DNA from: Symbiodinium natans
Taxonomy: Eukaryota > Sar > Dinophyceae > Suessiales > Symbiodiniaceae
Direction of reading: 5' to 3'
Assembly: GCA_905221605.1 (NCBI GenBank)
Contig: CAJNDS010002079.1
Coordinates: forward strand, 1,786,001 to 1,850,000
Length of the DNA stretch: 64,000 nt
Below, in pieces: positions 7,792 to 60,635 of this stretch (position 1 is its first letter; every line of letters starts with the position of its first letter). The position numbers were made by a program, and so were the translations under genes. Below the pieces are notes generated by a model. It made no database searches, had not been told where the DNA came from, and saw only the letters and a list, made by a program, of their open reading frames with translations.

Positions 7792-7901
7792 CCCAGAGGG
7801 TCCATTTGTAGTACCATTATGGAATTAGGTACCCAAAACCTTATTTAGTATGGTTTTTGGGTACCTAAATCCATAATAGTAATACAAATGGACCCTCTGG
7901 G
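7792..7901. mobile_element. Near-perfect palindromic TIR element
   Basis: CCCAGAGGGTCCATTTGTA opens and TACAAATGGACCCTCTGGG closes the element. Inner arms GGTACCCAAAACC and GGTTTTTGGGTACC pair almost completely, so the whole 110 bp can fold as one hairpin. Single copy here. Confidence 0.88.
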
Positions 7902-8007: not shown

Positions 8008-8159
8008 TTAGTAGGGAATGGGGAATGAGGTACCTCTATATACCACGGTTTAGGGTTTAGGGTTTAGGGTTTAGGGTTTAGGGTTTAGGGTTTAGGGTTT
8101 AGGGTTTAGGGTTTAGGGTTTAGGGTTTAGGGTACCTCATTCCCTTATTCCCTACTAAG
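8008..8159. mobile_element. Palindromic element with telomeric core
   Basis: The left arm TTAGTAGGGAATGGGGAAT then GAGGTACC is mirrored by GGTACCTCATTCCC and CCTACTAA. Between them are CTCTATATACCACGG and about twelve TTTAGGG units (8048-8131). Either the array grew inside a MITE or the element carries it. No second copy is present for comparison. Confidence 0.8.
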
Positions 8160-13223: not shown

Positions 13224-13285
13224 AAGGGTTCCTATATAGTAGCTTTAGGGCCCAACTATATACCTTGTGGGGACATGAACCCTTA
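13224..13285. mobile_element. TIR element family C, right half
   Basis: TATAGTAGCTTTAGGGCCC and GGACATGAACCCTTA match the right half of the intact copy at 32466-32572. The left half is missing. Confidence 0.65.
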
Positions 13286-13304
13286 GGGTTCGATTGATCT
13301 GCAC

Positions 13305-13645
13305 AAGGACATCCGGAGCTTTGGTTGCTCGAAAATTCGGCTTTTGCAGTGCCAAGGTAGTACGTCGAGGACGTCCGAATCTCTGGTGCTCGAAAATCGA
13401 CTTTTGTACAAACGCAGCACATCCGGAGGTCCAGTGGCTCGAAGGTCGGGCGTTTGTAGTACAAACCCTAAGGGTGCATGTCCCCACAAGGTATATACTT
13501 GGGCCCGAAAGCTACTACATAGGAACCCCTTTAAGGCCCGAGTATATACCATAGAGGTACATGGACCCTTTGGGAAAGGTAGTCTTCCGGAGGACGTCTG
13601 GAGCTCCGGTGGCATCAAAGGCGTTCTTTTGTGATCCCATGAAGC
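13305..13645 (+). repeat. Tandem repeat of about 50 bp, interrupted
   Basis: Units start with ACATCCGGAG or ACGTCCGAAT and continue GGTTGCTCGAAAATCGGC, CTTTTGTACAAAC. Three lie at 13305-13463 and a fourth (GACGTCTGGAGCTCCGGTGG) at about 13594-13645, after an inserted family C element. The long minus-strand frames here (up to 185 codons) read through both and show no domain. Confidence 0.78.
13469..13571. mobile_element. TIR element family C inside a tandem repeat
   Basis: Ends TAAGGGTGCATGTCCCC and GTACATGGACCCTT, with inner arms GTATATACTTGGGCCC and GGCCCGAGTATATACC. It separates units three and four of a 50-bp tandem repeat, so the repeat came first. Confidence 0.85.
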
Positions 13646-30523: not shown

Positions 30524-30850
30524 TAATCCGTTCCCCCTAATATTAATACCCCCCCAATATAAAGAACCCCCTGGCCCAAAATCCCGATCCCGTGCCTGTC
30601 CCTATTAAAACCTCTACAGAGAGAGGGGGGAGTTAGGGGGGGGGAGGGTTGGAAGCCGGAAGCAGAAACATGAACCTTTTCCAAACGTAGCTGTCTAGGC
30701 TTAGGCTGGGCTGCTGAGCCAGCGTGCTGCAATAAGGACGGGCTGGTTTTTCGGACAAACGATAAGAACCCCCCCTAATACAAAAAACCCTTTGGGGGTT
30801 TTTATACAAGGGAGGGGGGGGGGGCCTTTAATATTAGGGGGAACGGATTA
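30524..30850. mobile_element. TIR element inserted in a TTTAGGGG array
   Basis: TAATCCGTTCCCCCTAATA and TATTAGGGGGAACGGATTA are perfect inverted ends 327 bp apart. Inner C-rich and G-rich arms (TACCCCCCCAATATAAAG; GGGGTTTTTATAC) also pair. The flanks on both sides are TTTAGGGG-type repeat, so the element landed in, or recombined with, an array. No transposase frame. Confidence 0.82.
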
Positions 30851-32465: not shown

Positions 32466-32572
32466 CCTAAGGGTCCATGTACCCATATAGTATATACTTG
32501 GGGCTTAAACCGGCTCCCATATGGTAGCTTTAGGACCCTAATATGTACTATATAGGTACATGGACCCTTGGG
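32466..32572. mobile_element. TIR element family C, intact reference copy
   Basis: CCTAAGGGTCCATGTACCC and GGTACATGGACCCTTGGG are inverted ends; GTATATACTTGGGGC and CCTAATATGTACTATA pair inside. GCAAC on both sides (32461-32465, 32573-32577) is a candidate 5-bp target duplication. This copy shows what other family C copies looked like before interruption. Confidence 0.87.
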
Positions 32573-32577
32573 GCAAC

Positions 32578-33060
32578 AGACCTTGCGCCGAAAAAGCTTA
32601 GGAGAAGAAAGCATCCCAATATCTCACGTCTGCCTGGAAACCCGCACACCTGGCGCACTCCTGCACAGGGGATGTGCCTTAGGAGTTGGGTGCAGGATGT
32701 TTTTAGCCAGAGTTGTGCCGCCAGAGATGTGCTGTCGGACTGGAGGCTGCCAAGAGAATGCATTTCGCGCAGTACCGAAGCTTGGTAGCCCAGAGGTAGC
32801 CTTGTTCCGGGCTCCCTTATGAAACCTAGACAACCAAAAAAAGGGGGGTACCCTCATATTGAAACTGTGGCTTCTGGGCTACCAAGGAGGAAGAAGAATC
32901 GGCTTCCGTACTGGAACCACAGATCACAAAACCTCCTGCAAGCAAGGGGGGCCTTGTTTTACCGTGCGAGCAGGCCTAGGAGCCTCTTGCCATCGGAAAT
33001 ACCTGGTCCACGTGCCCAAACGAGAGCATGGGTTGATGGGTGGATCCACGAGGCCACGTG
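32578..33060. other. Unique region, no gene assigned
   Basis: Both strands hold frames of 70-85 codons (for example 32568-32822 + and 32624-32857 -). The two strands are open over the same bases and neither has a recognisable domain, so no choice is made. Confidence 0.4.
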
Positions 33061-57128: not shown

Positions 57129-57206
57129 ATGCTGAAGTCGGCGGGAGATGGGGAGATGCATCGCATCTTTGCGGTATCGGGGGAAACGGTGGCCACGATA
57201 CCCCTG
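57129..57206 (+). CDS. Ubl-domain gene, candidate exon 1
   Basis: From ATG at 57129 the frame reads MLKSAGDGEMHRIFAVSG then ETVATIPL. MHRIFAVSGETVATIPL has the strand-turn-strand layout that opens a ubiquitin-like domain. An inner ATG (57156) is an alternative start; the frame is also open upstream. The exon would end at CCCCTG|GAG (57206), where a TIR element follows. The next pieces at 57321 and 59414 supply the helix and the C-terminal strands. Ubl domains joined to ankyrin repeats are, as I recall, common among predicted dinoflagellate proteins; the cellular role here is unknown. Confidence 0.6.
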
Positions 57207-57209
57207 GAG

Positions 57210-57319
57210 CCCTGGGGACGAAATGAACCCTAAAATTGGGGTCATATACCCTCTACTACTTTGATTTCTGTTAAGGTAATATGAGCCCTAAACCCTTTTA
57301 GGGTTCATTTCGTCCCCAA
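57210..57319 (+). mobile_element. Inverted-repeat element acting as a possible intron
   Basis: CTGGGGACGAAATGAACCC, TAAAA opens and TTTTAGGGTTCATTTCG, TCCCC closes this 110 bp element. GGAG flanks it on both sides (57206-57209, 57320-57323). Splicing G|GAG...AAG|GAG (57207-57320) or exact excision both join CCC CTG to GAG AAG GCC ATG in frame, uniting the two Ubl pieces. This matches what is known as an introner: a transposed element that is spliced. The GA donor would be non-canonical but is reported in dinoflagellates. Confidence 0.68.
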
Positions 57320-57320
57320 G

Positions 57321-57418
57321 GAGAAGGCCATGGACGTGAGGTCCGCGAAGCAGTACCTTCAGGGCATCTGTGGCGAAGCTCGGTTCCGACTGCGGCTGCT
57401 CGGTGAGGGTGGCAACTT
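57321..57418 (+). CDS. Ubl-domain gene, candidate exon 2
   Basis: Continuing in frame: EKAMDVRSAKQYLQGICG then EARFRLRLLGEGGN. DVRSAKQYLQ is the Ubl helix, CGEARFRLRLL the following strand, GEGGN the turn. Helix, then CG..RFR.RLL, then G is a pattern I know from Ubl domains of dinoflagellate proteins. The exon can end at AACTT|GCGCC (GC donor, 57419) or, less likely, at CTGCTCG|GTGAGG (57402). The reading stays open to a T-run at 57441 and a TTTAGGG array. Confidence 0.62.
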
Positions 57419-57449
57419 GCGCCTGACCTTGATTTGCAAGTTTTTTTTT

Positions 57450-57524
57450 AGGGTTTAGGGTTTAGGGTTTAGGGTTTAGGGTTTAGGGTTTAGGGTTTAG
57501 GGTTTAGGGTTTAGGGTTTAGGGT
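57450..57524 (+). repeat. TTTAGGG array in the presumed second intron
   Basis: Ten to eleven perfect units between Ubl pieces two and three. Confidence 0.97.
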
Positions 57525-57715
57525 GTGCCAGGGGAGGGCGCGCGCTCGGGTGTGAAACACCCCGGGCCGCGCGCTCGCGTTGCCCGTCAACCCACCCCGG
57601 CCACCCAAACTCTATTAGGGTTTAGGGTTTATGGAATTTATTTTCTTGTGCTCTGATGCTTGCTTTGATGTTTTTAAAGTTGCGCTGTTAGGGTTTAAGC
57701 TGGGGTTGGGGGTAG

Positions 57716-58650
57716 CCTCGGCCCTTTTCGGGCCTTCGGCGTGTCAGGGCCCATAGAGGCCCTTATTTATTTGAAGGTCAGGGAAACCCTTTGTGCCTGC
57801 TCCTGGATTCCCCTTCTTTAAGAGCCTCAAGCCTTTTGGTGGCTCTTGGGGCCTTTTGGGGGCTTCCTGGGGGCTTTCCTGGCCCTTCCGGGGTAAAACG
57901 AAGGAAAAAACCATCAATTTCAGTACCAAAAAATCGCATTTTTCATTGCGGGTACGGGCATCCTGGGGTCCCCCTTCTCTTAGGGGGCCTTTTGAAGCCT
58001 TTTGAAGCCTTTTGGTGGCTCTTGGCGTCTCTCGGGGCCTTGTTCGGACCTTCGGCGTGTCAGGGGCCGTAGAGGCTTTATTCATTTGAGGGTCAGGGAA
58101 CCTATTAAATTTTTTCGCAAATGAGTATTTCAATCGCTAGGGCTTAAGCTGGTGTTCGGGGTAGCCTCGGCCCTTTTCGGGCCTTCGGCACGCAAGGGCC
58201 CGTAGAGGCCCTTATTTGCTTGAAGGCCTTCGCAGGGTTTTGCGGTGTTAGGGTTTAAGCTGGGGTTCGGGGTAGCCTCGGCCCTTTTCGGGCCTTCGGC
58301 ACGCCCTTGCTGATTTGGGGGCTTCCTGGGGTTTTCCTGGTCTTTTGGGATGAAATGGAGGGGTGCCCAAATCAATTTCAGTACTAAAAAAAAACATTTT
58401 CATTGTGGGCAGGGGTGCCTAAAACCATCATTTTCAATATTCAAAAATCGCATTTTTCATTGTGGGCACGGACAAATCTTGCAAAACATCGCATTTTTCA
58501 TTGCGGGTACGGGCATCCTGGGGTCCCCCTTCTTTTAGGGGGCCTTTTGAAGCTTATGAAGCCTTTTGGTGGCTCTTGGCGCCTTCTTGGGGGCTTCCTG
58601 GGCTTTCCTGGCGCTTCTGGTGTAAAATGGAGAAGTGCGCAAAACCATCG
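57716..58650. repeat. Modular dispersed repeats in the presumed intron
   Basis: CCCTTTTCGGGCCTTCGGC occurs at about 57721, 58169 and 58281; GTAGAGGCCCTTATTT twice; CATTTTTCATTGCGGGTACG with the next 25 bases at 57937 and 58492; CTTTTGGTGGCTCTTGG three times. Modules recur in mixed order. No telomere-like unit occurs here. Frames on both strands (up to 174 codons) are made of these modules and are not called genes. Confidence 0.85.
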
Positions 58651-59235
58651 ATTCCAGATAAAAAAAATTTTCATTGATGGCACGGCCCTCTTCGCCTGGG
58701 CGCCCTTTGGCGCGGAGGGCCTTCCTCTAGCCCTGAACCCCAACCCTGACCCCGGGGCGGGTTCTCTTGGCAGGGCCCTTGCTTGGCGTGGGGGGTTGGG
58801 GCCCGGCTTTTGGTTGCGCGGGGCAGAAGAGCAACCAGCCTGCCTGGACCCCTCGCTAGCCTCCTGGTCCAGGAATCCAGCTACCAGGGGCCAGGGGGCC
58901 CGAGGGGGGGGGCCCGGCAAACCCTGAACCCAAAACCCTGAACCACCTCTGGAGGCAAAGGGTTACGATTTGGGGTTATACTTTAGCGACGCTAAGGCCA
59001 TCCCTTAGCCGAGTACTGACGTTGTCGTAAAAAAGGCCGGTGTCCGTTGGCCTGTCCAGGACAGACGGTGAGGCTTAACCCTTACCTTTCCGTTTCTCTT
59101 TTCGCTTGGGCGCTCGGGCTGTAAGGCCCTCGGCCGGGTCTGTCGCTCGACGGAAGCGACCCCTCACTTAGTTTAGGGTTTAGGGTTCTATGGGCCCTAA
59201 CCCCTATCTGAGCCCTGTTAAAGCCCAAAAACATG
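58651..59235. other. Unique region of presumed intron
   Basis: GC-rich 58680-58920; CCTGTCCAGGACAG (59052) is a perfect small palindrome. One TTTAGGG pair at 59171. No gene called. Confidence 0.5.
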
Positions 59236-59375
59236 TGGGGGTTTACGAAAATAAGGGATCCCTAATATAGACCCCCACAGAATAGGATCCCCTTTTTGGG
59301 GGTCGTTATTATTATTATAAGGGAATCCTACCATTTGGGGATCTATATTAGGGGTCCCTTGTGTTCGTAAACCCC
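59236..59375. mobile_element. Palindromic TIR element
   Basis: GGGGGTTTACGAAAATAAGG and GTGTTCGTAAACCCC; inner GATCCCTAATATAGACCCCC and GGATCTATATTAGGGGTCCC pair over nearly 40 bases. End-like pieces also at 25467 and 34258. No ORF. It ends 38 bases before Ubl piece three. Confidence 0.87.
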
Positions 59376-59413
59376 TGTTTGACTTTCGAGTGGGCGCCCA
59401 AAACCCACCTCAG

Positions 59414-59513
59414 GCACGATGACACGATCTTCTCCGCGCCGCTGGAGCTGCAGTTGGTGGTTCTGCCCCTCCTCTCCATCTCACAAGGCGAAGCAGATCA
59501 GTTAGCCGCTCAG
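59414..59513 (+). CDS. Ubl-domain gene, candidate exon 3
   Basis: After CCCACCTCAG|G the frame reads HDDTIFSAPLELQLVVLPL then LSISQGEADQLAAQ. S/AP-L-E-LQLVVLPL is the last strand of a Ubl domain. Joined from piece two at the GC donor it gives GEGGNL-HDDTIFSAP, the right spacing for one domain. The tail SxSQGEADQLAA is the kind of linker that leads into ankyrin repeats. The frame stays open to 59640; the true 3' border is not clear. Confidence 0.6.
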
Positions 59514-60215: not shown

Positions 60216-60486
60216 AAAAAAACCCCCACTTAAACCGCGTTTGGTTGGCTGATTTGAAAAGGCGGAAGCCGTTAGAGGTCAACGATGTGAGATGACCTAG
60301 GAATTGCTGCAACGGCCCGCAGGACCCCGATTGACATCGACCGCTTAGGTCCGGTCCCCCCCCCCAGGGTTTAGGGTTAGGGTTTAGGGTTTAGGGTAGG
60401 GTCTAGGGTTCTAGGGTTTTAGGGTGGTAGTGTCTAAAAACACCAAAGCCTACAACCAACCTCAACCTAAGGGAGGGCGGGAGGCG

Positions 60487-60587
60487 GACTTCGGGTGCCA
60501 CCTCTGCATCGCCGCCGAGCAAGGCCATGCCGAGTCACGCGCTTGCTGCTGGATGCCAGGGCCAACATCGAGGCAGCGCACAACTGG
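60487..60587 (+). pseudogene. Ankyrin repeat fragment with small indels
   Basis: In three + frame pieces: DFG, PPLH; then IAAEQGHAE; then TRLLLDARANIEAAHNW. Together they follow the ankyrin consensus (xTPLHxAAxxGHxEVxRLLLxAGANIEA). The frame shifts near CTGCATCGCC (two bases short) and GCCGAGTCACG (one base short); the shifts add up to three, so the outer parts share a frame and a stop-free reading exists. Either a decayed repeat or a drifted one. It fits downstream of the Ubl pieces. Confidence 0.6.
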
Positions 60588-60635
60588 GTTAGGGTTTTAG
60601 GGTTAGGGTTTAGGGTTTAGGGTTTCTGTTCATGG
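60588..60635 (+). repeat. Short TTTAGGG array
   Basis: Degenerate units directly after the ankyrin piece; a matching run lies upstream at 60366-60425. Confidence 0.88.

Follow-up and report, generated by a model that had tools for sequence, protein, structure and literature searches.

Introners of Aureococcus and Micromonas, as Huff et al. are said to have found in 2016, are DNA transposons that leave target duplications, a trait shared by the family described below. For Symbiodinium microadriaticum, the legend of Fig. 2 in PMC9860276 describes introners with terminal inverted repeats (TIRs) in which the 3′ splice site is part of the element and the 5′ splice site is provided by the duplicated target. 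Introner surveys include one that names S. natans among its genomes (PMC10666404), one of the Symbiodinium group as a whole (PMC11114475), and a further one of Suessiales (PMC10522408); GC and GA donors together are given as 25–74% of Symbiodiniaceae introns (PMC11453091; table in PMC7789003). PacBio IsoSeq has been described for S. natans in PMC8045281. Within a stretch of S. natans DNA of 64,000 nucleotides, here called the window, a Ubl gene is interrupted by a short insert, which is very probably one copy of a family of non-autonomous TIR transposons acting as an introner. This interpretation, already put forward in a first-pass annotation of the DNA, is upheld by the high copy number of the family, its TIRs and 2-bp duplication, the GA–AG ends, the restored alignment with paralogues, and the presence of copies in other domains. 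The element is made up as follows.

57210..57321, forward strand: transposon copy, 112 nt, CCCTGGGG...CCCCAAGG, with 1 mismatch to the family end CCTTGGGG
57210..57235, forward strand: left terminal inverted repeat
57296..57321, reverse strand: right terminal inverted repeat, with the predicted 3′ splice site AAG/G within it
57208..57209, no strand: left copy of the target duplication AG (a 2-bp duplication, as in 73 of 99 family copies)
57322..57323, no strand: right copy of the target duplication AG (likewise)

The arms at 57214–57235 and 57296–57317 are complementary at 22 of 22 positions, as compared to no match in 100 shuffles of the window, which bears out the strong inverted ends claimed at first; stretched to the ends of the element, the arms differ at one of 26 bases. 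The initial size of 110 bp has to be corrected, since the element proper measures 112 nt (57210–57321) and the frame-restoring unit 114 nt (57207–57320). The GGAG direct repeat reported for both sides is indeed present at both borders (57206–57209 and 57320–57323), but the target duplication comprises AG only, the longer repeat being due to the terminal GG of the element and a chance GG in the exon. A 4-bp GGAG duplication was rejected, because the right-hand GG is part of the element itself and only 13 of the 146 oriented rows analyzed below have GG ahead of the duplicated dinucleotide. When folded computationally as RNA, 57207–57320 forms a stable hairpin of –57.8 kcal/mol (z –9.4). The 64-kb window harbors just one copy of the 22-base arm at up to three mismatches.

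Other repeats occur in the window as well. A 241-nt inverted-repeat element at 13257–13497, with 21-base arms containing CCTTGTGGGGACATG, resembles the introner end and perhaps represents a related family, and short elements whose inverted arms (14–23 bases) match exactly are located at 7792–7901, 8021–8144, 30524–30850, 32469–32569, and 32781–32886, the last of which ends CTTGG...CCAAG, followed by G, as expected of an introner. Arrays of the telomere-like heptamer, (TTTAGGG)n, are found in both orientations; the 219 exact runs with at least two units cover 10.6% of positions 1–64000, and the heptamer density is 19.5 per kb, versus 10.7 per kb in other loci of this genome (181.5 kb). Insertion as inverted-end elements was rejected as a general explanation of these arrays, since flanking inverted repeats of at least 10 bases were found at 4 of 95 merged arrays, with 6.1 expected from shuffled pairings. 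The segment 62001–64000 shows a sharp shift in composition (62% GC and a GC skew of 0.42, versus about 50% GC elsewhere).

In the genome assembly from which the window derives (759.4 Mb, 2543 contigs), a 16-base core occurred 356 + 350 times on the two strands, versus 0 + 1 times for the reversed control, and a 26-base end with up to two mismatches 1086 + 1078 = 2164 times, versus 0 + 0. The sources read, 111 in total, comprise the window and 110 loci (L001–L090 and L121–L140) taken from the top of the lists of exact matches, so that the sample is biased to well-kept copies. They yielded 99 distinct copies with both ends at most 700 bases apart, no such pair being present in 17 of the 111 sources. 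The sampled copies end in CCTTGGGG...CCCCAAGG and range in length from 73 to 549 nt (quartiles 111 and 140); with their shortness (median 112 nt), TIRs, and lack of coding capacity (n = 99), they show the traits of MITEs. The interval in L121 was considered as a possible autonomous partner and rejected, as it consists of two separate short copies.

The two bases immediately outside the ends were identical in 73 of the 99 copies, about 6 being expected by chance, and three matching outside bases were observed in 1 of the first 78 copies; the target duplication of the family therefore is two bases. In 16 of the 26 copies without this duplication, the ends depart from the consensus by no more than one mismatch. 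The duplicated dinucleotide was AA or TT in 28 of 73 copies, indicating an A/T-rich insertion preference. Of 1978 candidate copies 40 were scored against the window element, the nearest being 88–93% identical to it; the proposal that the intron was recently gained is thus weak for the window copy. However, within the sample the copies in L083 and L127 are 99.1% identical and have unrelated flanks, which indicates that the family moved recently, even if the window copy is older.

The distribution of the family is uneven: among the first 100 listed matches, 13 are located on contig C147 and 10 on C180, each of about 1.08 Mb, and many contigs contributed one. At least two tandem telomere-like heptamers are found inside 17 of the 99 copies (e.g., L007, L015, L018, and L020), and the family TIR itself contains AACCCTAAA.

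The gene which accommodates the window copy is proposed to have the following structure.

57156..57206, forward strand: exon 1, beginning at the start codon and coding for the first 17 Ubl residues (MHRIFAVSGETVATIPL), from paralogue alignment starting at the start methionine; end set by the join
57207..57320, forward strand: predicted intron 1, 114 nt, GA...AG, almost wholly introner; its removal restores the paralogue alignment
57321..57418, forward strand: exon 2 of Ubl (EKAMDVRSAKQYLQ...GGN plus two bases of the codon that follows)
57419..59413, forward strand: predicted intron 2, 1995 nt, GC...AG, with telomere-like arrays; flanking exons homologous to L112 and L106
59414..59510, forward strand: exon 3, Ubl end (HDDTIFSAPLELQLVVLPLLS...), with provisional 3′ end (L112, E 9.3e-5; L106, E 8.5e-4)
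60483..60590, forward strand: possible ankyrin-repeat exon in two frames; weak matches, E 2.4 and above

If the element is retained, the reading frame stops 25 codons past the start ATG, while excision of 57207–57320 gives MHRIFAVSGETVATIPL-EKAMDVRSAKQYLQ... in frame. A genome search with 50 residues of the joined sequence resulted in at least 150 scored places at E ≤ 1 (285 candidates). The best 30 of these were made into loci, one of which is the window, leaving 29 for comparison, and these loci are paralogues rather than an orthologous empty site. The junction is crossed without a stop in all 29, and in 27 of them no gap occurs within about five residues of it. The alignment of exons 1 and 2 through the junction with 29/29 paralogues sustains the in-frame join as a GA–AG intron. 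GGAG is found at the junction in 6 of the 27 ungapped paralogues, showing that a member without interruption can carry such a site. Locus L112 aligns with exon 2 as far as L112 residue 66, and from residue 67 onwards with 59415–59504; the join of exons 2 and 3, CTT/GCGCC...CTCAG/GCACG, leads to ...LLGEGGNLHDDTIFSAPLELQLVVLPLLS, an unbroken Ubl end. The paralogue family with Ubl and ankyrin repeats is very large in this genome (at least 150 places), often with long uninterrupted frames.

That removal of the element restores the Ubl layout, as stated in the first-pass annotation, is corroborated by the paralogue alignment and by exon 3, but the joined window peptide itself does not match the domain in Pfam: its best hit was to an unrelated family (E 0.23), with nothing at E ≤ 0.01. 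The 83 residues of the joined sequence were also used in a large protein search, which gave no match at E ≤ 0.001. In three paralogues, Pfam ubiquitin was matched by L094 (2e-6; 27.9 bits versus a cut-off of 25.4 bits) and, below the cut-off, by L092 (0.0022) and L112 (0.0085), and strong ankyrin repeats lie beside the ubiquitin match in L092 and L094. The name “Ubl” consequently rests on the paralogues. The possible ankyrin exon of the window gene is split over two frames, which may indicate either a decaying gene or pseudogene, or a sequence error; the window gene may thus be decaying.

This split exon is in keeping with the alternative that a MITE landed in a dying Ubl pseudogene and is not spliced at all, the frame being restored on paper only, as it would be for any insertion with a duplicated target site that is removed exactly. 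Considering that exons 1 to 3 are otherwise intact across the whole Ubl, we regard this explanation as improbable. The introner interpretation predicts, in addition, a G directly before the duplicated dinucleotide NN of copies that interrupt exons. The flanks of the 73 duplicated copies were joined on both strands, resulting in 146 oriented rows (two per copy, not independent); for each row, the longest frame through the join was taken and the base before NN was scored for G. A G was present in 55 of the 146 rows, the flanks containing 26% G. It preceded NN in 9 of the 10 rows whose frames have at least 170 codons versus 46 of 136 other rows (Fisher 0.0007), in 14 of 20 at ≥150 codons versus 41 of 126 (Fisher 0.0017), and in 18 of 30 at ≥130 codons versus 37 of 116 (Fisher 0.005). 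The 18 G rows of the last group would give intron starts GA (10), GT (5), and GC (3). That copies are common and that the needed G is absent in 91 of the 146 rows would suit the pseudogene explanation, but the G is present at the window copy, and family-wide it is enriched in long joined frames. Many copies need not sit in exons.

The search for other genes with the same element at exon-like borders, suggested in the annotation, was successful, as domains of the Tho2, NAD-binding, ankyrin, and DUF4116 types were found to be interrupted. The first 54 copies provided 42 G rows and 66 non-G rows, from which 17 of the 19 longest G rows (all but L002 minus, of low complexity, and L006 plus) and, as control, the 28 longest non-G rows were submitted to Pfam. 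With L138 plus and L140 plus (G) and L123 minus (non-G), which were picked from 8 rows of the later loci, the totals were 19 G rows and 29 non-G rows. Domains above the Pfam cut-offs were Tho2 in L138 (5.3e-17), NAD_binding_1 in L052 (2e-9), and ankyrin in L044 (8.6e-7), all spanning the join, and DUF4116 in L042 (1.8e-24 for the whole protein), where the match extends about six residues past the join. Below the cut-offs, TIR_2 in L041 (2.7e-5), Peptidase_M3 in L030 (2.5e-4), a TNFR-like domain in L079 (0.0011), and Band_7 in L019 (0.0031) also span the join. Among the control rows, SnoaL_4 spans the join in L020 (0.0043, below the cut-off), overlapping ankyrin repeats. Join-spanning domains above the Pfam cut-offs hence amount to 4/19 G rows versus 0/29 non-G rows (p 0.02), those at E ≤ 0.001 to 6/19 versus 0/29 (p 0.002), and those at E ≤ 0.01 to 8/19 versus 1/29 (p 0.001), this support covering a minority of the copies. 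TIR_2 in L053 and RCC1 in L080, which lie beside the join, and VIT1 in the control L045, which ends before it, were not counted as spanning; the ankyrin matches in the G row of L020, with the join at residue 16, were likewise left out.

Repeat-rich introns are often seen in dinoflagellates, and the MITE might accordingly have inserted into an already existing intron. However, the intron borders lie within three bases of the element ends, with no older intron sequence left, and an intron is absent from the site in 29/29 paralogues examined, making this explanation very improbable. That the element is cut from the DNA during development, like internal eliminated sequences of ciliates, would fit its inverted ends, short direct repeat, and exact removal, but is least credible of all, as the element is kept in the assembly, the enrichment of G ahead of the duplicated bases in long frames would be expected from splicing and not from DNA excision, and to our knowledge no such developmental DNA removal occurs in dinoflagellates.

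According to the introner interpretation, the element, moved by a transposase presumably supplied in trans, would duplicate two target bases on insertion (AG in the window). Its right end, CCCCAAG/G, would bring the 3′ splice site, while the 5′ splice site would come from the target, the intron starting with the G just before the duplicated NN, that is, with GA in the window copy and with GT or GC at other copies. Splicing, presumed to take place in the RNA, would remove the element and one copy of (G)NN, and since this copy leaves with the element, the message would regain its pre-insertion sequence. Either orientation should work, because both element ends are alike, and the TIR hairpin may bring the splice sites together.

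With CCTTGG/CCAAGG as ends and a duplication of two bases only, any exonic G-N-N, in principle on either strand, would suffice to produce an exact GN...AG intron. Given the preference for A/T-rich dinucleotides, such introns would start mostly with GA. We tentatively propose, at somewhat less than even chances, that this one-base rule holds, that the unusual GA...AG introns found in dinoflagellates could derive directly from introners of this kind, and that tolerance of the host towards GA donors lets the family spread. Genome sequence alone points to a transposon family able to generate introns that preserve the frame, and to a simple rule determining which insertions are harmless. If RNA bears this out, the rule predicts which of perhaps a thousand copies are spliced and provides a concrete origin for GA...AG introns, an odd feature of dinoflagellate splicing.

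No printed sequence of the window family was found in the introner literature examined, a search which cannot show that the family is unpublished. Introner family 1 of S. microadriaticum (Gozashti et al. 2022, PMC9860276, Fig. 2B) possesses TIRs, as does the window family, and the example depicted (86725–86839) is of about 115 bp; its duplication is reported as 4 bp, in contrast to the 2 bp observed here. Compared by description, the two may belong to one family or to different ones. Polarella and other dinoflagellates, likened here by description, are stated to contain many introner families with recent activity (Roy et al. 2023, via the review PMC11453091). The introner elements of Amoebophrya (Farhat et al. 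2021, PMC7789003) are alike in having inverted repeats in the intron, direct repeats of 3–5 nt at the ends, and a hairpin, but their splice sites and inverted-repeat motifs are described as very varied, whereas the window family has one shared TIR and GN...AG borders. The Aureococcus example in the legend of Fig. 2F of PMC9860276, with an 8-bp duplication and both splice sites in the element, is unlike the window family. Intron gain via such elements is already known in such algae, and the window element is a clean further example.
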